Below are positions 17,998 to 62,095 of a DNA stretch of 62,095 nucleotides, piece by piece. The stretch is from a virus. The first letter of the stretch is position 1. Every line of letters starts with the position of its first letter. The stretch is from positions 1 to 62,095 of the IMG/VR virus record IMGVR_UViG_3300030427_000031; one strand, given 5' to 3'. The notes under the pieces were generated by a model. It was not told the DNA's origin, did no database searches, and saw nothing but the letters and a program-made list of their open reading frames with translations. A program made the position numbers and the translations under genes.

Positions 17998-18456
17998 ATG
18001 AACGAACAGATGAGATGTAAATATGGTACCGGCGGAGTGGACAAGAAAAACAGTGAAGGCTATCCCGACCCTACCGCATACGAGGCGCTGATAAACATTA
18101 AAAAGGAAGACAAGGTATTCAAGCCGCTGGTGTATATCTGCTCACCATATGCGGGTGATATCAAGAGAAACACTGAAAGGGCTAAACTTTATAGTCGCTT
18201 CGCTGTTATTGAAAGAAACACTATCGCCTTTGCGCCACACCTGCTTTTTCCTTTATATCTTTCAGATGATGATCCTGTGGAACGCGAGCTTGCACTGTTC
18301 ATGGATGTTGTCTTCTTAGGTAAATGCAATGAGCTGTGGGTGTTTGGTGAAAACATCACGAAGGGCATGCAGATGGAGATTGATAAAGCTAAGAAGCGCC
18401 ATATGACTATTCGCTATTTTACCGAGGATATGGAGGAGGTAGAAACATGCAACTAA
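17998..18456 (+). CDS. DUF4406-like protein, nucleoside 2-deoxyribosyltransferase fold
   Basis: 152 aa, ATG after AAGGAGGT. After a variable 40-residue N-terminus, KPLVYICSPYAGDIKRNTERAKLYSRFAV and FAPHLLFPLYLSDDDPVERELALFMDVVFLGKCNELWVFGENITKGM match the DUF4406/nucleoside deoxyribosyltransferase-like family (substrate-binding YICSPY, D-x-x-x-L-x-x-C-D/N-E-L-W). First gene of the rightward early operon and overlapping the primase gene by 10 nt. A role in nucleotide salvage or modification for phage replication is inferred. Confidence 0.8.
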   Translation: MNEQMRCKYGTGGVDKKNSEGYPDPTAYEALINIKKEDKVFKPLVYICSPYAGDIKRNTERAKLYSRFAVIERNTIAFAPHLLFPLYLSDDDPVERELALFMDVVFLGKCNELWVFGENITKGMQMEIDKAKKRHMTIRYFTEDMEEVETCN

Positions 18457-20699
18457 CAATTTGTACAGCAAACTGTGTCGGCAATCAGAAGAACTGCCTC
18501 TATCCAAATAAAAGAGTTGTTACCTCGGAAGATGAACTGAAGGAAGCGGTGAAACTCGATCATGTTTGTGCTGAGTATAAGAACAACTACCGAAGTGCAG
18601 ATAATTTCTTAAAGTCTGATGTCATCGTTATGGATTGTGATAATGACCATACCGAAAATCCGGATGAGTGGATAACGCCAGAGGCATTGGATGAGCTTTT
18701 AACGGATGTTTCATATGCGATTGCTCCCAGCCGCCATAACATGCTTTCTAAAGATGGGAAAACAGCAAGACCCAAGTTCCATGTTTACTTTTCTATAGAA
18801 GAGCTAACAGATGCGGAAGGATATGTGGCTATAAAAAAAGCTATCCATGCTCAGTTTCCATTCTTTGATGATAACGCTCTGGATGCAGCACGTTTTATCT
18901 ATGGGGCTGATACCGGCGAAGTTATCTGGCATGAAGGCTGGCTAACGATTGATGAGTTATTGGAGAACGTTTCTGCACCTACAAATATAGGTTGCAGCAA
19001 TTCAATACCTGAAGGTCAACGCAACAATACTCTGTCTCGTTTTGCTGGCCGCGTTGTAAAGAGATACGGCAGCACAGATAAGGCCCATGAGATTTTTCTG
19101 GAAGAAACCAAGAAATGTGATCCTCCTATGGACGATGAAGAACTTACTGCTATCTGGAATAGTGCTATTAAGTTTGCAAGGAAGGTGCAAGGTCAGGAGG
19201 GGTATGTTCCTCCAGATGACTACAATTCTGACTTTGAATCGCTGAGACCTTCCGACTTTTCTGATATTGGCCAGGCAAAGGTGTTGACTCGTGAATATGG
19301 CAATGAGCTCTGCTACACCGATGCCACAGATTATCTTCGTTTTAACGGTGAGTATTGGATGGAATCAAGACAGCAGTCGGTTGGTGCAATGGAAGAGTTC
19401 CTCGATTTACAGCTTCAAGATGCCCTCGGTGAGGTGGAAAGCGCCCTTAATGCCTTATTTGCTTTGGGTGAAAAGGAAGAAGATATTCTTGCTGGCGGTA
19501 AAAAGTATGAAGCTTCACTTTCAGGAGATCCATTAAAGGCACTTAAGAAGTATCAGTCGGCTGTTGCGTATAGAACTTTTGTAATGAAGCGCAGGGATAT
19601 GAAATATGTCATCTCAGCATTGCAGGCTGCAAAGCCAATGCTGGAAATCAAGGTGAGCGACTTAGATAAGGATGAGTTCCTACTTAATACACCGGGTGTT
19701 ACGTTTGACCTTCGCAAGGGTCTGGCTGGTGGTCGTGCTCCAGATGCAGCGGATTATATTACAAAGCAAACAACTGCTTCTCCGGGAGATAAGGGTGAGC
19801 AAATTTGGTTAGATGCTCTGAACACCTTTTTCTGTAATGACCAAAAGCTGATTGATTACGTTCAACAGATTGTTGGCCTTTCTGCAATCGGTAAAGTCTA
19901 TCTCGAAGCTATCATCATTGCCTATGGTGGAGGCCGCAATGGTAAATCAACCTTCTGGAACAGCATCTCAAGGGTACTCGGCTCCTACAGTGGTGCTATC
20001 TCAGCCGATACACTTACAGTTGGTTGCCGCAGAAACGTAAAACCTGAAATGGCAGAGCTTAAGGGCAAACGCCTCATCATTGCTTCCGAGCTTGAAGAGG
20101 GTATGCGCCTCAACACTTCAATTGTTAAACAGCTTAGCTCTACGGATGAAATCGAAGCTGAGAAAAAGTATAAGGACCCGTTCAAGTTTGAGCCTTCTCA
20201 TACACTGGTGCTTTACACGAATCATCTTCCCAGAGTCGGTGCCAATGATGATGGCACCTGGAGACGTCTCATCGTCATTCCCTTTAATGCAAGAATTGAG
20301 AATAAAAGCGACATCAAAAACTACGCCGACTACCTTGTTAAGAATGCAGGCTCGTACATCATGAGCTGGATCATCGAAGGTGCAAAGAAAGCTATTGAGG
20401 CTAACTACCATTTCAGTGTTCCCGCATGTGTTCAGGAGGCCATTGAAGCGTACAGAGAAAATAATGACTGGCTTGCTTCCTTTTTGGAGGATTGTTGCGA
20501 AGTGGATAAGACATACCAGCAAAAATCCGGTGAGTTTTATCAGGAATACCGTGCACATTGTGGGCGCAACGGTGAGTACACAAGAAGCACAACAGATTTC
20601 TATACTGCTTTGGAGACTGCTGGGTTTGAACGCAAAAAGACCAAAACAGGTAGCTTCATTTATGGTGTGCGCTTAAAAGAGGAAGAGTTTCTAAGTTGA
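18447..20699 (+). CDS. Phage/plasmid P4-type primase-helicase
   Basis: 750 aa, ATG after GGAGGAGG. The N-terminal region carries a primase-like acidic motif (DVIVMDCDND, about 58-67) and a histidine further on. The middle holds the D5_N region, and the C-terminal superfamily 3 helicase has Walker A GGGRNGKST (about 492-500), Walker B ELKGKRLIIASELE and the arginine finger region TNHLPRV. The last 100 residues form a winged-helix-like end. Such proteins prime and unwind at phage origins. It overlaps the DUF4406 gene and precedes a 150-nt repeat-rich gap. Confidence 0.92.
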   Translation: MQLTICTANCVGNQKNCLYPNKRVVTSEDELKEAVKLDHVCAEYKNNYRSADNFLKSDVIVMDCDNDHTENPDEWITPEALDELLTDVSYAIAPSRHNMLSKDGKTARPKFHVYFSIEELTDAEGYVAIKKAIHAQFPFFDDNALDAARFIYGADTGEVIWHEGWLTIDELLENVSAPTNIGCSNSIPEGQRNNTLSRFAGRVVKRYGSTDKAHEIFLEETKKCDPPMDDEELTAIWNSAIKFARKVQGQEGYVPPDDYNSDFESLRPSDFSDIGQAKVLTREYGNELCYTDATDYLRFNGEYWMESRQQSVGAMEEFLDLQLQDALGEVESALNALFALGEKEEDILAGGKKYEASLSGDPLKALKKYQSAVAYRTFVMKRRDMKYVISALQAAKPMLEIKVSDLDKDEFLLNTPGVTFDLRKGLAGGRAPDAADYITKQTTASPGDKGEQIWLDALNTFFCNDQKLIDYVQQIVGLSAIGKVYLEAIIIAYGGGRNGKSTFWNSISRVLGSYSGAISADTLTVGCRRNVKPEMAELKGKRLIIASELEEGMRLNTSIVKQLSSTDEIEAEKKYKDPFKFEPSHTLVLYTNHLPRVGANDDGTWRRLIVIPFNARIENKSDIKNYADYLVKNAGSYIMSWIIEGAKKAIEANYHFSVPACVQEAIEAYRENNDWLASFLEDCCEVDKTYQQKSGEFYQEYRAHCGRNGEYTRSTTDFYTALETAGFERKKTKTGSFIYGVRLKEEEFLS

Positions 20700-50115: not shown

Positions 50116-50532
50116 ATGCCAATTCCATATGGGTACAAAATTGAGAAAGGCAAAGCTGTTATAGATGAAGCTCAAGCCGAGCAGGTTAGGATGATTTACA
50201 AAGGTTATCTTTCCGGCCTCGCCTACGTTGCTGCAGCAGAGGCCGCTGGGCTTACGATTCTACATCCAGGTGTAAAGAAAATGCTACAAAATAAACGCTA
50301 CCTTGGTGATAAATACTATCCTGCGATCATCGATCAGGAGACTTTTGATAGAGCTGAAGCAGAACGAATCAAACGTCAAAGAAGGCTTGGTAGAGTATTT
50401 GCGGATAAGCCGGTAGAGGAATGCAAGCCAGCGACAAAATTTACTATGCCGAAAGCAGGAAAGATTTTCATTGACCCATTTAAGCAGGCGGAGTACATCT
50501 ACAGCTTGATAGAAAGTGAGGTGGAGGTATGA
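50116..50532 (+). CDS. Truncated recombinase-domain protein without catalytic domain
   Basis: 138 aa. [84 protein letters not shown] matches the recombinase DNA-binding domain (PF07508 type), but the serine catalytic domain is absent. It is a conserved small member of such three-gene recombinase sets, so it is probably an accessory subunit and not a pseudogene. It overlaps the next gene by 4 nt. Confidence 0.85.
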
Positions 50533-52103
50533 TCTCCTTAGCGAGTAATGTAACGGTTATTCCAGCAAAGAAAACCATCGGGACACAGAAAGCAACCGAC
50601 AAAAAGCAGAAAACCAGAGTCGCAGCATACTGTCGTGTCAGTACTGACAGCGATGAGCAAGAAACCAGCTATGAAGCCCAGATCCAGCATTACACCTCAT
50701 ACATTGAAAGTCATCCGGATTGGGTACTAGCCGGAATTTATGCCGATGATGGCATCTCTGGAATGAATACGAAGAAGCGTGATGAGTTCCAGCACATGAT
50801 TAACGACTGCAATGACGGCAAGATAGATATGGTGATTACCAAGTCCATCAGCCGGTTTGCAAGGAATACGGTGGATTGCCTGAATTACACCAGAGCCCTT
50901 AAGAATAAGAACATTGGCGTCTATTTCGAGAAAGAAAATATTAATACGCTCGATGCTAAGGGTGAAGTGCTCATGACAATTATGGCTTCTCTTGCACAGC
51001 AAGAAAGTGAGTCATTGTCGGCCAACGTTCGTCTGGGCTTGCAGTTCCGATACCAACAAGGAAAAGTTCAGGTCAATCACAACTGGTTCTTGGGATATAC
51101 CAAAGATGCAGACGGTCACCTCATCATTGATCCAGAGCAAGCCGAAGTCGTGAAGCGCATTTATAGAGAGTACCTTTCCGGTAAGAGCTTCTTACAGATA
51201 AAAAGGTCTCTTGAGGCCGACGGTATTCTAAACGGTGCGGGTAATGAAAAATGGCATGAAAGTAATATAAAGCAGATACTTACGAACGAGAAGTACATCG
51301 GAGACGCTTTGCTCCAGAAGACTTATACGGTGGATATTCTTGAAAAGAAGCGTGAAGCTAATAAGGGTCAGGTTCCTAAATATTATGTAGAGGACAGCCA
51401 TGAAGCTATTATTCCAAAGGATATCTTCCTAAAGGTACAGGAGGAAATCGCACGACGCGCAAATCTTACTAAAGGCACCACAAAGCGCAAACGAATCTAT
51501 AGTGGCCGTTACGCTTTATCTGGAATAGTTTTCTGCGCATACTGTGGCGACATCTTCCGCAGAATTAAATGGAACAATCGCGGGTGTAAGTCCACCGTTT
51601 GGCGCTGTGTCAGCAGAGTTGAAAAAGACGGCCCTGATTGCCCGGCAAGAACTGTTCACGAGAAATTGCTTCAGGAGGTAGTTATCAAGGCTATAAACGA
51701 AGCGTTCCGTGAAAAGGAAGCAATCCTGCCACTTTTACGAGAGAATATCGAGAGTAGCCTTGAGGAAGTCACCTCAAATCAGATTGCAGCGATTGATGAA
51801 CAAATGAAGTCAATGCAGCAGGAGCTAATGGCAACCGTTAATTCAAAGAATACCGGTGATGAGCTTGGTCTGGAGATTAGGAGGCTGCGCGATGAGAAGC
51901 AGGCCCTACAAAATGAGCAGGCATCCCGTCAGGATCTGAAAAAGCGAATTGATGATTTGATGCGTTTTCTTAACGACCTGCCTTGTGAGCTGATTGAATA
52001 TGAAGAAGATTATGTGAGGACTCTCCTGGAAAAGATAACGGTTTACGACGACCACATCATAGTTGAATTTAAGTCCGGAATTGAAATCCAAATTGACGAA
52101 TAA
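50529..52103 (+). CDS. Large serine recombinase 2
   Basis: 524 aa, ATG after [34 protein letters not shown] carries the catalytic serine; [14 protein letters not shown] and a full recombinase domain follow ([34 protein letters not shown]). Zinc-ribbon cysteines are present ([23 protein letters not shown]) and the C-terminal part is coiled coil (about 400-480). Distinct from recombinase 1, so the two may act together or serve different steps, which the sequence does not reveal. Confidence 0.95.
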
Positions 52104-56499: not shown

Positions 56500-57095
56500 T
56501 GGCTAAAAGAGATCGTTATGATGTTCTAGTTATACTTACAAATAATGCGGCTCTCATATGGAAAGAAGCTCGTGGGATAGCACCGGATTCGGCAGCCGAT
56601 AAGCTGGACGATGCTATGCTCGAATGGCAAAGCAAATTGACAAAAACATTAAAAATTTGGATTGATAAAGGTCTCACAATGACTACAGGTGAGCTGATTC
56701 TTGCACGTGCAAATCTTGGTGCAGTCGTTGAGTCATGGCTTAAATTCTTTTACTGTGTTTACTATGAGGATTATTGTAAGAGCCCGATTACAAATAACAA
56801 AGGCAAAATGATAGAGCCGGAAAAAGCTTCGTTCGATAATCTTAAAGACTTTAGTAGTGGAAAGCTATGGGATGATGTAAATTCACCGGAGTACGCTTGG
56901 GTTGATTCTGTTCAGCATAAAAGGAATGCAATTCATTCGTTCAGATATAGAGATATTGGAACTTCACTAGAATTTTTGGATGACATTGATCATCTTTATA
57001 ATTTTGTAGAAAATGTGCTTTCACATTTTCCACCACTTGAGGATTATATCGAGGCATATCCACCTGGTTATGTGATGAATCCATATTCTAATTGA
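56499..57095 (+). CDS. Possible HEPN-like protein (198 aa)
   Basis: The ATG at 56499 overlaps the preceding stop. The protein is largely helical (NNAALIWKEARGIAPDSAADKLDDAMLEWQSKLTKTLKIWIDKG, LARANLGAVVESWLKFFYCVYYEDYCKS). A late HKRNAIHSFRYRD segment (about 146) resembles the R-N-x-x-H type signature of HEPN ribonucleases or their inactive relatives. HEPN proteins are common in abortive-infection systems. The motif is short and spacing is one residue shorter than usual, so this is only a suggestion. Confidence 0.5.
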   Translation: MAKRDRYDVLVILTNNAALIWKEARGIAPDSAADKLDDAMLEWQSKLTKTLKIWIDKGLTMTTGELILARANLGAVVESWLKFFYCVYYEDYCKSPITNNKGKMIEPEKASFDNLKDFSSGKLWDDVNSPEYAWVDSVQHKRNAIHSFRYRDIGTSLEFLDDIDHLYNFVENVLSHFPPLEDYIEAYPPGYVMNPYSN

Positions 57096-57220
57096 TATGT
57101 TCCCACGAACAGTAAAACCGTTGATATATTTCCACATACCTCGAAAATGCTAAAAAACGGTTGACCTGTTTCCACTAACGTATGGTTCAAAATTTCAGCG
57201 GTTGACATCATTTAGGCTAA
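57092..57220. repeat. Tandem TTGAYMTRTTTCCAC repeats, possible solo IS21-type end
   Basis: TTGATATGTTCCCACGAAC (57092-57110), TTGATATATTTCCACATAC (57121-57139) and TTGACCTGTTTCCACTAAC (57161-57179) are related, and a degenerate fourth (TTGACATCATTTAGG) starts at 57202. IS21-family elements carry several such repeats at each end; no istA/istB is present here. 57221-57327 holds no recognised gene. ATTTGCC/GGCAAAT (57309-57315, 57338-57344) may form a hairpin at the integrase 3' end. Confidence 0.45.
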
Positions 57221-57327
57221 CTCGGCCCATGTGGAGACAGTGTGTCTGTTATCCAGTAAAATCAAGGGTTTGAAGTAATAAAAATATCAACCCCTGTTGA
57301 TTTGCTTACTATTTGCCAACGTAATTT

Positions 57328-58563
57328 TTACTTGGTAGGCAAATTATGATTGACTGCTTTTTCAAATATATCAACTGACTGTTCAGCCATTTTTTCAGTT
57401 GAATGTGTGTATGTTCCAAGGGTGGTTTCAATATTGGCATGACCAAGCCTGTCTTGAACATCCTTAATGTTTGCACCATTTTCAATCAGGGTGGTTGCGT
57501 GGGTATGGCGCAATGAATGAAAGTTGAACAGTATACCCAAGCTATAATGAATCACCCTGGCAGCATATTTGAAGGTGTCAGGTGTTATCATGTCACCATC
57601 TTCTTTGGTGCAAACCATTTGAATTGGTTTTATGATACCAGCATCAATTGAAAGTGACAGTGAATAAATCCTTCTTAATTTTTCATTCCCATTCAATTCT
57701 TCAACTTCATATTGCTGAATGAAGTGCTGACCATATTTCAATCTGTTTTCCAGTTGCCATTTCTTATGCTGCTTCAAAGCTAAAATTAATGTTTTACCAA
57801 TCTTGATGGTTCTTACTGATGATTCTGTTTTAGTAGAACCAAAATACCAGTCCGGTTTGCGCTTATAAATGAGTTTGTTAATATTAACAGTTCCTTTTTC
57901 AAGGTCAATATCATCCCATGTCAAACCCATGACTTCACCAATTCTGCATCCAGTATAATATCCAATCATCAGCGCAATATGAAAAGTTGTTCCGGCTGGA
58001 AATCTTGAAATTATCTTTTCAAAGTCATCTTTTGAAATAACCTTGTGGTCAATTTCAAGTTTTGAATGTTCATATTTTGGGTACTTCACATATTGCATGG
58101 GATTATCCTTGATGAACTTGCATGGATGCACAGCATATTTTATTGACCCACTTAAAACAGTCATGATGTTGGTCAAATGATGTTTACTAAAGCCGCTTAA
58201 ATATTTTCCATTGATAAATTCCTGAAGGATTGCGGGTGTCAATGACTTCAGCTTGTAAATTCCCAATGCTGGTTTAATATGATTCCTGATGATAATTTCA
58301 TAACCAGTTTGGGTGTTGTATTTACAATTAAGCAACACATAGTTCTTCATCCAATAATCCATATAATCTGATACTGAAATTTCAGTTGGTTCAAAATGTA
58401 ACCCGGCATTGTTGTACTCTTGAAGTGCAACCCTCAAAGCAGCTTCAGCTTCCTTCTTTGTTCTTCCTCCAACACGTTCAATTCTTTTCCTTTTTCCATC
58501 CACATTGGATGCTTCAAAGGAAAAATACCACTTGTCACCACGTTTTCTTACATGACCTTCCAT
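57328..58563 (-). CDS. Tyrosine recombinase/integrase
   Basis: 411 aa from the ATG at 58563 (AAAGGAT upstream on the - strand); the longer reading to 58704 enters the repeat region. An AP2-like N-terminal arm-binding domain (RKRGDKWYFSFEASNVDGKRKRIERVGGRTKKEAEAAL), SAM-like core-binding domain (about 65-160) and catalytic domain follow, with TGCRIGEVMGLTW (about 206), HSLRHTHAT (about 349) and the nucleophile Y in LGTYTHSTEKM (about 384). The R, HxxR and Y are present, so it looks active. It marks the end of a second integrated element, transcribed toward the junction. Confidence 0.95.
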   Translation of the reverse strand: MEGHVRKRGDKWYFSFEASNVDGKRKRIERVGGRTKKEAEAALRVALQEYNNAGLHFEPTEISVSDYMDYWMKNYVLLNCKYNTQTGYEIIIRNHIKPALGIYKLKSLTPAILQEFINGKYLSGFSKHHLTNIMTVLSGSIKYAVHPCKFIKDNPMQYVKYPKYEHSKLEIDHKVISKDDFEKIISRFPAGTTFHIALMIGYYTGCRIGEVMGLTWDDIDLEKGTVNINKLIYKRKPDWYFGSTKTESSVRTIKIGKTLILALKQHKKWQLENRLKYGQHFIQQYEVEELNGNEKLRRIYSLSLSIDAGIIKPIQMVCTKEDGDMITPDTFKYAARVIHYSLGILFNFHSLRHTHATTLIENGANIKDVQDRLGHANIETTLGTYTHSTEKMAEQSVDIFEKAVNHNLPTK

Positions 58564-58592
58564 AATAACTTCATCCTTTCTTTTATTTTTTA

Positions 58593-58854
58593 GTTCAAGA
58601 TGGTTCAAGATGAATTGTTTTATCTTGAACTGCTTTAAAGCCTTTATATATAAGGTTTTTTTCAATATCAGTTCAAGTTCAAGATTGTTTTTTCTTCTAT
58701 ACATTATTTCTTAAGGATATATAAACATTTTTAATGTAATTTTAAAAATGTTTAATAAAATATCAATTCATCTTGAACCATCTTGAACTTTCCCATAAAT
58801 ACAAGGTTTTCATCTTGAACCACAATCTTGAACCATCTTGAACTTATCTTGAAC
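58593..58854. repeat. Ten copies of the 9-mer ATCTTGAAC/GTTCAAGAT upstream of the integrase
   Basis: GTTCAAGAT occurs at 58593, 58603 and 58677; ATCTTGAAC at 58622, 58770, 58780, 58812, 58825, 58835 and 58846. Adjacent copies are spaced 10-11 bp. A perfect 25-bp inverted repeat (58593-58617 against 58764-58788) encloses an AT-rich core with a 12-bp hairpin AAACATTTTTAA/TTAAAAATGTTT (58723-58734, 58742-58753). It lies between the integrase and the next gene, so it is candidate arm-type, origin or operator DNA. Confidence 0.85.
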
Positions 58855-58858
58855 TAAA

Positions 58859-59197
58859 TTATTTTAATTCAACAAGTATGTATTTCTTGATGTACTGAAT
58901 CCACTTATTAATCCCTTCAATATAATCATGAAGTTCACCTTTGATGTTTTGACTATCATATAAATTTTTCATTATCATCATCCACTTTGTTCTGCCTTGT
59001 AATTTTATTTTTCCAATAGGATATGAAGCATAATCAACATTGATTGTTCCATCTGACAACCTTGTAAATTTAAATACTGCTTTTAACCCGCTTTCTTCTA
59101 TCTTCATTTTAAGAGCATTAAAAAACATAATTTCATCTTCAATAACTTCATAAGTTTTTCTTGGATTAGTTGAATTTTGTGCAATTTTAAATTCCAT
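58859..59197 (-). CDS. Uncharacterised protein (112 aa) of the integrase module
   Basis: Start at 59197 (GAAAGGATTGA upstream on the - strand); the longer reading to 59305 overlaps the neighbour. MEFKIAQNSTNPRKTYEVIEDEIMFFNALKMKIEESGLKAVFKFTRLSDGTINVDYASYPIGKIKLQGRTKWMMIM suggests an alpha/beta protein. No family recognised; it follows the next gene by 17 nt in the same leftward direction and its stop lies 5 nt from the repeat array. Confidence 0.65.
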   Translation of the reverse strand: MEFKIAQNSTNPRKTYEVIEDEIMFFNALKMKIEESGLKAVFKFTRLSDGTINVDYASYPIGKIKLQGRTKWMMIMKNLYDSQNIKGELHDYIEGINKWIQYIKKYILVELK

Positions 59198-59214: not shown

Positions 59215-59610
59215 TTACAACGTATATTCTGATGGTGCTGCACAGTGCATGACTTCTTCCCTGAAATTTAAGACCTGATTCATTGTCTTTGCGCTTACAT
59301 CCCAAAAGGCAAGATGTTTTGGTTCACCTGCTGAAGATGTGTACTTAAATACATAATAAAACTTTGTTCCAGCTTTACTGGTAGTTCCTGCGGTATTGTG
59401 GTACTGAACCAGGAAATTATTTTCAGGCATTGCATCAATAGAAATCACTTGATTAAATGGCAGCTTCACTATAAGGTCAGGGTTTATTTTCTTGATAACC
59501 AGTGCATCATTTTCCAGAATAATGGTGCAAGGGAAATCCTGAATGAATCCCGGCAATCCTTCATAATACATAACATTCAAAGTGTTAGTTTCTTTTTTCT
59601 TTCCAAACAT
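59215..59610 (-). CDS. Uncharacterised protein (131 aa), possible PH-like domain
   Basis: Start at 59610 (AAAGGAAG upstream on the - strand). MFGKKKETNTLNVMYYEGLPGFIQDFPCTIILENDALVIKKINPDLIVKLPFNQVISIDAMPENNFLVQYHN reads like a small beta-rich fold, with positions resembling bacterial PH-like proteins. Encoded between the repressor and the integrase, where prophages often carry exclusion or immunity proteins; that role is inference. No known family could be named. Confidence 0.6.
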   Translation of the reverse strand: MFGKKKETNTLNVMYYEGLPGFIQDFPCTIILENDALVIKKINPDLIVKLPFNQVISIDAMPENNFLVQYHNTAGTTSKAGTKFYYVFKYTSSAGEPKHLAFWDVSAKTMNQVLNFREEVMHCAAPSEYTL

Positions 59611-59627
59611 AAACACACTTCCTTTCT

Positions 59628-60263
59628 TTAAAATACATTACTTTGAAATGCAATTGCTTTTCCTAAAATTCTGACATAATTAAGTTCTTCGTTTTTATAA
59701 ACCATAGGCTTATAAGCTGAATTTTCAGCAACCAAAATGATTTCATTTTCTTTTTTATATACTCTTTTCAGGGTTGCTTCATCTTCAATTAAAACAGCGG
59801 CAATTTGACCATCTTCAACATCAGATTGCTTCCTGATAAAAACAATATCACCATCACAGATTCTTGCATTTACCATGCTGTCACCCTGAATCTTCAAACA
59901 AAAATCAGCCTGAATATTTGTACCAGCTTCAACATAACTTTCAAATTGTTCATCAGCAAAAATTGGTACACCAGCAGCAATTGTTCCCAGCAAAGGGAAC
60001 TTTTTTGTTTCAATCTTTAAAATGTTATCAGGGTATTTGGTAGATGTTCTTTCCATTGGCACATCATAACCCATTAACCAGGATTCACTTACATCTAAGG
60101 CTTTTGCAATCAAATAAATTCCCTTTTGTTTTGGTTCATACTTCCCGGAATAATATTGGCTTATTGCTGATTTTCCAAGACCAGTTTTTTCAACCAAGTC
60201 AGCTTGTTTCATATCTCTAATATCCATAGCTTTTCTCATCCGGCTTGCAAAAGAATCTTTCAT
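59628..60263 (-). CDS. LexA/CI-like repressor (XRE HTH with S24 peptidase domain)
   Basis: 211 aa from the ATG at 60263. The N-terminal HTH is RMRKAMDIRDMKQADLVEKTGLGKSAISQYYSGKYEPKQKGIYLIAKALDVSESWLMG. The C-terminal S24 domain has GDSMVNARICDGDIVFIRKQ (Ser nucleophile in GDSM) and EATLKRVYKKEN (catalytic Lys), with an Ala-Gly cleavage site in LGTIAAGVPIF. Such repressors keep a prophage silent and self-cleave upon RecA activation. A divergent operator-promoter region lies immediately beyond its start. Confidence 0.95.
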   Translation of the reverse strand: MKDSFASRMRKAMDIRDMKQADLVEKTGLGKSAISQYYSGKYEPKQKGIYLIAKALDVSESWLMGYDVPMERTSTKYPDNILKIETKKFPLLGTIAAGVPIFADEQFESYVEAGTNIQADFCLKIQGDSMVNARICDGDIVFIRKQSDVEDGQIAAVLIEDEATLKRVYKKENEIILVAENSAYKPMVYKNEELNYVRILGKAIAFQSNVF

Positions 60264-60298
60264 TAATACACACCCTTCCATAATTAACCTTATTCAAT

Positions 60299-60367: not shown

Positions 60368-60434
60368 TTGACAAGTTTTTCTATAGGGTGTATCATAAAA
60401 ATAGTTCAAGAAGCTGAACCGAAAAGTTCAAGAA
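60368..60434 (+). promoter_or_regulatory. Rightward lytic promoter and operator
   Basis: TTGACA (60368-60373), 17 bp, TATCAT (60391-60396). Just after it the palindrome GTTCAAGAAGCTGAAC (60404-60419) has GTTCA/TGAAC arms, and GTTCAAGAA repeats at 60426. This is the expected layout of a lysogeny switch with the S24 repressor bound over the rightward start. 60435-60548 holds no ORF with a convincing start. Confidence 0.75.
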
Positions 60435-60548
60435 AGGAATGAAGAAATTGACCATAATGATTTTGTTACATACGCAAGATTTATGGATGAAAGTAATATA
60501 AAGAAAAATTATCCTTGGACAAAGGAAATGTGAAAGGTGGAATTAATT

Positions 60549-60854
60549 ATGGGAAGACGTGATGTAAACAAATTGGTTGATGCAATGGTAGCAAAACGGA
60601 AAGTACGTTTGGCAGAAGAAGCTGATAATGACTTCAATTTTTTGATTGAAGTGCTGGAAGGAAATGTTAAAATTGGGGAACCGGAAAAACAGAGGTTCAT
60701 TCGCCTATATCGTAAATTATTAGAATCCGGTCAGTATATTGGAATGAGGCAAGGCAAAACAGTAATATCAAACAAGTTCCCAGAAAAAGTCACAAAACAA
60801 CTTGAAAACTTTGATGACCTTATATTAAGGCGTGCTTCGAGGCCTGTCCCTTAA
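60549..60854 (+). CDS. Uncharacterised early protein whose 3' end is set by a transposon insertion
   Basis: 101 aa from the ATG at 60549 (GAAAGGTGG upstream). GRRDVNKLVDAMVAKRKVRLAEEADNDFNFLIEVLEGNVKIGEPEKQRFIRLYRKLLESGQYIGMRQGKTVISNKFPEKVTKQLENFDDL is mostly charged helix. Its last codons (Pro-Val-Pro-stop) come from the inverted repeat of the inserted RAYT element, so the native C-terminus is probably replaced. It is transcribed from the rightward lytic promoter. Function unknown. Confidence 0.65.
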   Translation: MGRRDVNKLVDAMVAKRKVRLAEEADNDFNFLIEVLEGNVKIGEPEKQRFIRLYRKLLESGQYIGMRQGKTVISNKFPEKVTKQLENFDDLILRRASRPVP

Positions 60855-61785
60855 CATATTAACTTATTGTTGATGGAACAAACACTTTCTGTTAGAATAT
60901 GGCAGGAGGTGTTTTTTCTTTGGTCAGGCGGGCTCGAGTGGAGTATCCGGGTGCTATATACCACGTCATACAGCGGGGAAATAACAAGGAGGACGTGTTT
61001 GAAAGTCCGGAAAAGAAAGACTATCTTATCAATCTTCTCAGTAAATCCGTGGCGGTGAATGGCGTTGAATTATATGCCTACGTGGTAATGAGCAATCACT
61101 ACCACCTCGCCCTCAGAACATGCAGAGAAACGTTGAGTAAAGTAATGCACCGGCTAAATACAGGATACGGCATTTATTACAACCGACAAATGAAAAGGAC
61201 CGGACACGTTTTTCAGGGAAGATATAAAGCCATACCCGTGCTGGACGAGAGCTATCTCATGGTATTGGTGAAATATATTCACCTAAACCCGGTGAGGGCT
61301 GGTATTTGTAACGACTTACGTAACTATCCCTGGTCCGGCGACGGTTGCTACCGGACAACGGAATCCGGCATAGTGGAGACTGGATTTTTACTGGACATGT
61401 TATCCAAGGACAGAAAAAAGTCTTATGCAAAATATAATCTGCTATTGGGTCAAGAGTATGATCCAGGCACAATAGAATTGATTACAGCAGAAAACAAAAA
61501 CACAGAGGGCCAGATTGAACCTCAAAAGGTTACCGGCGGCAGAAAATCACTAAACGAAATACTAAAAGAAACAGGCATCAAACAGGAGGAATTAGAACAA
61601 ATAAAAAGGGGGTCCAGGCTGAGAAGGTTTTCTCCGGTTAAGACAGTATATGCAAAATCCGCATGGGAGCACGGTTATTCACTAAAAGAAATAGCCTGCC
61701 ACATTGGAGTCTCTTCTGTGGCTGTGTTCAAGTATATTAACAAGACGATCAGCAAGCAATAAGTTAACAAGTTAAGGGACAGGCC
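60841..61785 (+). mobile_element. RAYT transposon element with 28-bp inverted ends
   Basis: The left end (60841-60868) starts GGCCTGTCCCTTAAC and the right end (61758-61785) is its inverse; 26 of 28 bases match. The right end contains the transposase stop codon. No target-site duplication is apparent, as expected for Y1 (HUH) transposases. The element sits between two convergent genes. Confidence 0.85.
60920..61762 (+). CDS. RAYT-type Y1 (REP-associated tyrosine) transposase
   Basis: 280 aa from TTG at 60920, since the ATG at 60899 is itself part of the AGGAGGT (60904-60910) binding site region. VRRARVEYPGAIYHVIQRGNNKEDVF, the HUH motif SNHYHLAL, VFQGRYKAI and the LVKYIHLNPVRAGI helix with its catalytic tyrosine are all present. 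The C-terminal 100 residues contain an HTH (YSLKEIACHIGVSSVAVFKYINK). The enzyme moves or maintains REP-like palindromes as single-stranded DNA. It appears intact. Confidence 0.93.
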   Translation: MVRRARVEYPGAIYHVIQRGNNKEDVFESPEKKDYLINLLSKSVAVNGVELYAYVVMSNHYHLALRTCRETLSKVMHRLNTGYGIYYNRQMKRTGHVFQGRYKAIPVLDESYLMVLVKYIHLNPVRAGICNDLRNYPWSGDGCYRTTESGIVETGFLLDMLSKDRKKSYAKYNLLLGQEYDPGTIELITAENKNTEGQIEPQKVTGGRKSLNEILKETGIKQEELEQIKRGSRLRRFSPVKTVYAKSAWEHGYSLKEIACHIGVSSVAVFKYINKTISKQ

Positions 61786-62095
61786 CCGATATCTCCCTTA
61801 AATTTTCTAAGCTATTTGCCATATCTTTCATGCCAAGATAGTTTGTGCGAGCGTAATCTGCTACTTTTTCGGAATGTTTTATTACTTCATGGTTTTTACC
61901 TAATATGGAACGGCATTTTGCTATAACCTCTATAACAAAAGGAGCAATATCTTTGTCGTAAGAGTGTTGTAATCTCATTCCATGAGATAATACATTTTCT
62001 CTATATTTTTCAAAATTAGGGAATGTAAATAATTTTGTGTAAATGGAATTATTACCCTGGGGCTTGATGGATATTATTGGTAAACAGCCATTTGT
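61772..62095 (-). CDS. Uncharacterised protein, partial, runs off the right edge
   Basis: Open from the window edge to the stop at 61772-61774, about 107 codons; an internal ATG lies at 61978. The visible part includes KLFTFPNFEKYRENVLSHG, HSYDKDIAPFVIEVIAKCRSILGKNHEVIKHSEKVADYARTNYLGMKDMANSLENL. The last codons (Gly-Pro-Val-Pro-stop) lie within or next to the RAYT inverted repeat, mirroring the gene on the other side. No family recognised; base composition is AT-rich as in the neighbouring element. Confidence 0.6.
   Translation of the reverse strand, partial: TNGCLPIISIKPQGNNSIYTKLFTFPNFEKYRENVLSHGMRLQHSYDKDIAPFVIEVIAKCRSILGKNHEVIKHSEKVADYARTNYLGMKDMANSLENLREISGPVP

Follow-up and report, generated by a model that had tools for sequence, protein, structure and literature searches.

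Inverted iteron arrays of temperate phages follow the winged helix of a primase-helicase and are probably replication origins or origin-like sites

What is the role of a dense cluster of 9-bp repeats directly 5' of a phage integrase gene? Such an array occupies positions 58593-58854 of the IMG/VR virus record IMGVR_UViG_3300030427_000031, analyzed here as a stretch of 62,095 nucleotides (hereafter the window), and a first-pass annotation of this DNA had suggested an iteron-type replication origin, arm sites for the integrase, or a silencing array. Replication of phage P4 uses two cis sites, ori and crr, and the array is very probably either an iteron-type replication origin of a temperate phage or an origin-like second site comparable to crr. 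The phage's own primase-helicase is the protein most likely to dock on it, because the iteron tracks the winged helix of this protein and because a change in one array of a phage is usually matched in the other. Among the suggested roles the origin was strongly favored by three features computed in the present study, namely the array anatomy, the linkage of arrays to a primase-helicase family (here F0), and the covariation of iteron and wing.

As had been claimed, the array is real, with ten exact copies of the 9-bp iteron ATCTTGAAC/GTTCAAGAT in 262 bp and none elsewhere in the window (shuffled sequences: mean 0.8, maximum 3, 0/100 reaching 10), and an 11th copy with one mismatch at 58671. Iteron starts are 10-13 bp apart within blocks, and the blocks face inward across an 84-bp AT-rich center. 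From left to right, searches for copies and comparison with the layout of related arrays (see below) identified an outer plus-strand pair, GTTCAAGATgGTTCAAGAT (58593-58611; exact matches at 58593 and 58603, 10 bp apart), which forms the outer block of the family layout; a single inverted iteron on the minus strand (58622-58630), equivalent to the "39-" position of that layout; a spacer (58631-58670) carrying a second conserved element, AAGCCTTTATATATAAGG (family form AAACCCTTGATATCAAGGGTTT); an inner plus-strand pair (58671-58685; one mismatch at 58671, exact at 58677); the AT-rich center (58686-58769), a candidate unwinding region judged from the A+T comparison of 49 centers; an inner minus-strand pair, ATCTTGAACcATCTTGAAC (58770-58788); a single minus-strand iteron of the integrase-side subtype, pointing in the same direction as the outer block (58812-58820); and an outer minus-strand triple (58825-58854; starts at 58825, 58835, and 58846). 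The reported 25-bp perfect inverted repeat was also right, since the longest perfect inverted repeat in 58560-58870 measured 26 bp (left arm 58592-58617, right arm 58764-58789, around the AT-rich center). The reported AT-rich hairpin is present (13 bp; 58722-58734/58742-58754) but is not a defining part of the array, and it was rejected as a conserved core, as few of the related arrays had a comparably strong hairpin in the center (10% of 49 at nominal p<=0.05). The array matched no RNA family in Rfam (best, a sub-threshold SNORD50 match, E 0.8), and a nucleotide search of phage and plasmid DNA collections gave no match to the array itself.

When 2.9 million viral contigs (IMG/VR) were searched for pairs of iterons separated by 1-3 bp, 88 stretches matched, many of the array contigs being fragments, and about 60 distinct arrays of 240-320 bp were recognized. 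They share one common layout with variations, in which inverted iteron blocks surround an AT-rich center: [0+ 10+ 21+] [39-] [88+ 97+] about 95 bp [187- 197-] [245+] [264- 275- 286-]. Several integrase-side arrays, including that of the window and, e.g., L027, L054, L065, and L109, have no distal inverted single site and instead carry at least four copies in one direction. The centers of 49 arrays contained 84% A+T, compared with 63% for their loci, and the second element, AAGGSTTT, was about nine times denser within arrays than outside (2.36 vs 0.26 per kb), with at least one occurrence in 20 of 40 arrays. Paired repeat sets flanking an AT-rich region, the arrangement expected of an iteron origin of the D5/SaPI-Rep/P4-alpha type (SaPI, Staphylococcus aureus pathogenicity island), were thus observed in the array. 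Outside phages the iteron pair was rare, and among 398 genomes of the phylum matches were detected in the window's own genome and one other only. This other match (L273; G170:C67 around 4765) reads as a CRISPR array with a spacer, GGGTTCAACATGGGTTCAAGATAAAGTTCAAGAT, matching the iteron array type.

The arrays occupy two locations, lying either in the gap between the repressor operon and the integrase gene or in the gap between the replication module and an ArpU-RinA-like late regulator, which is followed by the terminase and portal genes. The same iteron was found beside two integrase BLAST families (F5 and F20) and two regulator families (F2 and F11). Both arrays, about 14-28 kb apart, were present in 8 of 10 near-complete records (39-51 kb), and each of the remaining two had one array; in one of these, G136, an integrase was not seen. 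Similarity between two arrays was greater within a phage than between phages (p=0.0013, n=8). Nine additional phages had one iteron class in both arrays, though the classes differed between phages, several of which used other iterons. G539 was left out of the two-array cases, as both of its matches were one array.

Linkage to the primase-helicase was evident across these phages. F0 is a 570-630-aa protein of the replication module with D5_N, DUF5906, and Pox_D5 domains (phrog_864) and a match to PDB 7ola. Of the 32 array contigs that reach 11 kb, 25 encode it, and so does every one of the 10 that reach 39 kb. Fifteen pattern-matched contigs lacked a GTTCAAGAT cluster, and only two of these had F0, L064 and L073, which both carried a variant CTTGAACA array. 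A de novo search around 104 F0 loci detected an inverted array of at least five copies at 59. Of these arrays, 58 started 0-5.6 kb 3' of F0, and the remaining one, at L230, had its start 1 bp short of the end of the F0 reading frame. As nulls, Markov sequences gave 0/60, and 3/36 control pieces scored, all three holding arrays of the same family. Phages with other versions of F0 had arrays of other iterons; the set at F0 loci comprised GTTCAAGAT, GGAACAGAT, GTAACAGAT, GTTACTGAT, GTTACACAT, GGTATAAG, and AAGTCAAGAT, several of which retain a 3' GAT. In cultured relatives, GTAACAGAT-type iterons (Paenibacillus phage Wanderer) and ACATAAGACA iterons (Staphylococcus phage PI-Sepi-HH2) likewise lie directly 3' of the primase. 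A D5-type initiator with a C-terminal winged helix and an array 3' of its gene were therefore both seen in relatives, and the window's array is an additional, integrase-side kind.

Iteron sequence also covaried with the wing of F0. Across 43 non-redundant loci, iteron similarity correlated with the F0 wing after correction for the helicase (partial r=0.40, 0/5000 permutations), and its correlation with the helicase given the wing was r=0.11 (583/5000 permutations); these permutation tests remove shared ancestry incompletely, and the wing hypothesis had been formed on part of the same loci. The F0 columns most associated with the iteron included wing residues 548, 550, 552, 554, and 557, with 550 and 552 ranking first. 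In this region an AlphaFold (AF2) model placed helices at 512-525 and 533-544 and strands at 546-553 and 556-563, with a pLDDT (predicted local distance difference test) of about 80 there and a poor 61 for the whole model. In the integrase-side arrays alone (17 phages; other arrays, from phages overlapping those of the 43-locus test), the iteron again followed the distant F0 wing (r=0.58, 7/10000 permutations) and showed no relation to the adjacent integrase (r=-0.04, 5659/10000 permutations). The iteron sequence thus varies with the C-terminal winged helix of F0 and with neither the helicase core nor the adjacent integrase. Such covariation suggests that the C-terminal domain of each initiator is specific for its own iterons.

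These results bear directly on the proposal that the array provides arm-type sites, that is, an attP-like region (attP, phage attachment site) to which the adjacent tyrosine integrase would bind through its Arm-DNA-bind_4 domain. The integrase does carry this arm-binding domain, the 10-11-bp tandem spacing and the inverted AT core with its 7-bp loop look attP-like, and in many phages the integrase-side array lies close 5' of int. Besides the missing correlation with the integrase, however, comparison of integrase upstream regions, which the annotation had advised, revealed a homologous array in L015 and L016 (integrases 83% identical), whereas other related elements, with integrases 79-87% identical, had a terminator-like hairpin or other DNA in its place. 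In addition, the array occurs a second time about 14-28 kb away, next to ArpU and remote from any integrase, and it accompanies integrases of the markedly different family F20 as well. Several contigs with int also stop soon after the end of that gene, which suggests an att site downstream of int. Repeats conserved with the integrase and around a crossover core, as in an attP with arm sites, were not found; arm sites were accordingly not supported and have very little probability.

A silencing role was also proposed, in which the S24 repressor would bind the array as a stoperator-like operator set controlling int and the late genes. In the window and several relatives the operators do have TCTTGAAC/GTTCAAGA in common with the iteron, and the match of the core GTTCAAGA in the repressor's operators at 60404 and 60426, from which control of both sites by one protein had been suggested, is real, but it covers only part of the site. 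The operator region (60399-60436), which holds GTTCAAGA twice, is similar to but distinct from the iteron array when the operators of relatives are compared. The arrays also persist where the operators differ: L066, with an unrelated repressor and operator, still has GTTCAAGAT arrays, and L018 and L094 have AAACTT-type operators without TGAAC, yet their arrays are of the GTTCAAGAT type. Furthermore, the operators are single palindromes without tandem 10-bp blocks, the late-side arrays lie far from the repressor, and the iterons follow the primase wing. Sites matching and changing with the repressor's operators were thus not observed, and a silencing array is improbable, although the 7-8-mer common to operators and iteron could permit cross-talk.

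A center flanked on each side by clusters of 10-11-bp repeats is also seen in plasmid centromeres, which speaks for a centromere or partition site (ParR/ribbon-helix-helix type) or another architectural array. No partition gene was recognized beside the arrays, however, and such a site would leave the covariation with the primase wing unexplained, so that this explanation retains scarcely any probability. A further explanation accepts the primase-helicase as the binding protein and divides the roles, the late-side array alone being the origin and the integrase-side array a regulatory target through which the primase-helicase controls int. The position of integrase-side arrays directly 5' of int agrees with this, as does the lack, in several of them, of the distal palindrome of late-side arrays; a sigma-70-like site also lies in the center of the window's array (58766-58739), though such sites show no excess over shuffled sequences (18 observed, 16.4 expected). 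Nevertheless, integrase-side arrays retain the AT-rich center and inverted iteron blocks of late-side arrays, and a purely regulatory target appears rather unlikely. The integrase-side array may serve as a second origin, as a crr-like partner, or in control of int by the initiator.

Several observations weigh against an origin or crr-like site of the primase-helicase. F0 was missing from seven array contigs of at least 11 kb, all of them fragments, and 45 of the 104 F0 loci had no array above threshold (degenerate, masked, or out of range). In G530 (L285 and L186) the arrays were discordant, a weak GTTCAAG-class late array with a matching wing occurring together with a GGAACAGAT integrase-side array, perhaps owing to module exchange, and in G521 an integrase-side array was not seen. 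GC skew gave no signal of origin position and was uninformative. Finally, the 4.1-Mb genome to which the window belongs, on a 69-kb contig, gave a best F0 match of only 148.7 bits, the presumed partner being absent from the assembly. Insertion sequences disrupt the element, and the search of this genome gave no close primase-helicase, so that the array here may have been orphaned or may have a partner missing from the assembly.

Interpretation as an iteron origin draws on the resemblance of the pattern to the systems of SCCmec (staphylococcal cassette chromosome mec) Cch2 and SaPI Rep (PMC7581432), the phage-inducible chromosomal islands (PICI; PMC6092414), and P4 alpha (PMC4234260). In PICI/SaPI, the initiator helicase has a C-terminal origin-binding domain and the iterons lie downstream of rep (PMC6092414, PMC7581432), and in PICI of Escherichia coli the origin invariably comprises two sets of iterons with an AT-rich region between them (PMC6092414). 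The arrays described here resemble the PICI/SaPI origins with Pri-Rep/Rep (SaPI5 Rep, SaPIbov1 Rep, and EcCICFT073) in the initiator type and in the two iteron sets flanking an AT-rich region. Unlike PICI/SaPI, however, they belong to full-size phages, usually number two per genome with one anchored 5' of the integrase, and join the AAGGSTTT-type second element to 9-bp iterons whose inverted arrangement is fixed. P4 alpha unites primase, helicase, and winged helix in one protein that binds the origin repeats (PMC4234260), a likeness that extends to the two cis sites, whereas iteron sequence and layout differ. Similarly, SCCmec Cch2 is of the D5 type and related to SaPI5 Rep, and its C-terminal domain (400-538) binds iterons immediately 3' of the gene (PMC7581432), but the putative origin has only three 5-nt AAGTG direct repeats and neither a symmetric array nor a second array.

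By analogy with these relatives, from which binding, melting, and initiation are inferred, a primase-helicase of the D5/P4-alpha/SaPI-Rep type would read each 9-bp iteron via its C-terminal winged helix. The inverted iteron blocks would load two helicase oligomers face to face across the AT-rich center, and bidirectional replication would begin when this center melts. The principle is already known from SaPI, PICI, and P4; the paired, integrase-linked layout and the covariation of wing and iteron appear to be a new variation on it. If so, origins and initiator specificity could be predicted from sequence for many uncultivated phages, wing residues indicating the iteron and the iteron indicating the primase-helicase on which a phage or satellite depends, which also suggests which satellites could parasitize which helpers. 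In addition, the old question of why replication of the P4 type relies on two distinct cis sites becomes testable in many phages.

A stand-alone copy of the winged-helix domain of the primase-helicase was found beside GTTCAAGAT arrays in three small elements (L029:2836-3222, 43% over 68 aa; L080:242-643; L101:2641-3027). These elements also contain an integrase (L029 and L101), TerS, and ArpU and tape-measure-like genes (L029 and L080); a terminase large subunit, portal, capsid, and primase were not recognized in them, and they are possibly satellites. A broader, tentative proposal, itself somewhat unlikely as a whole, is that in a large group of temperate phages of Firmicutes one initiator acts on two arrays, one of which ties integrase expression or the att region to replication, that the satellite-like L029, L080, and L101, with the same array and a detached winged helix, recruit or block helper replication, and that the wing residues form a readable iteron code.

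In the window's genome, the array is located between the integrase start and a small open reading frame (ORF), downstream of the S24 repressor operon. The tyrosine integrase (57328-58563, minus strand) has Arm-DNA-bind_4, SAM-like, and Phage_integrase domains, and the array begins 30 bp 5' of its start. On the other side follow, all on the minus strand, a small ORF with a protein-family match to phrog_10777 (58859-59197), a small conserved ORF of family F14 (59215-59610), whose homologue in L015 and L016 directly precedes the array, and the CI-type repressor with S24 and HTH_3 domain matches (59628-60281). An IS200-like insertion (60841-61790) breaks up the early region of the element; it has inverted TTAAC/GGGACAGGCC-type ends and a plus-strand Y1_Tnp transposase gene (60899-61762). 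At the contig end, a 419-aa transposase-like ORF (L005:8104-9363) is apparently a second transposase gene, by eye of the IS256/mutator type. To the left of the array lies a separate prophage (18447-52103) with a VapE-like helicase (18447-20699), terminase, portal, tape measure, and a large serine recombinase (50529-52103). Between this prophage and the integrase, a GTTGATATNTTTCCAC-like motif, possibly transposon-related, is repeated at 57090-57240.
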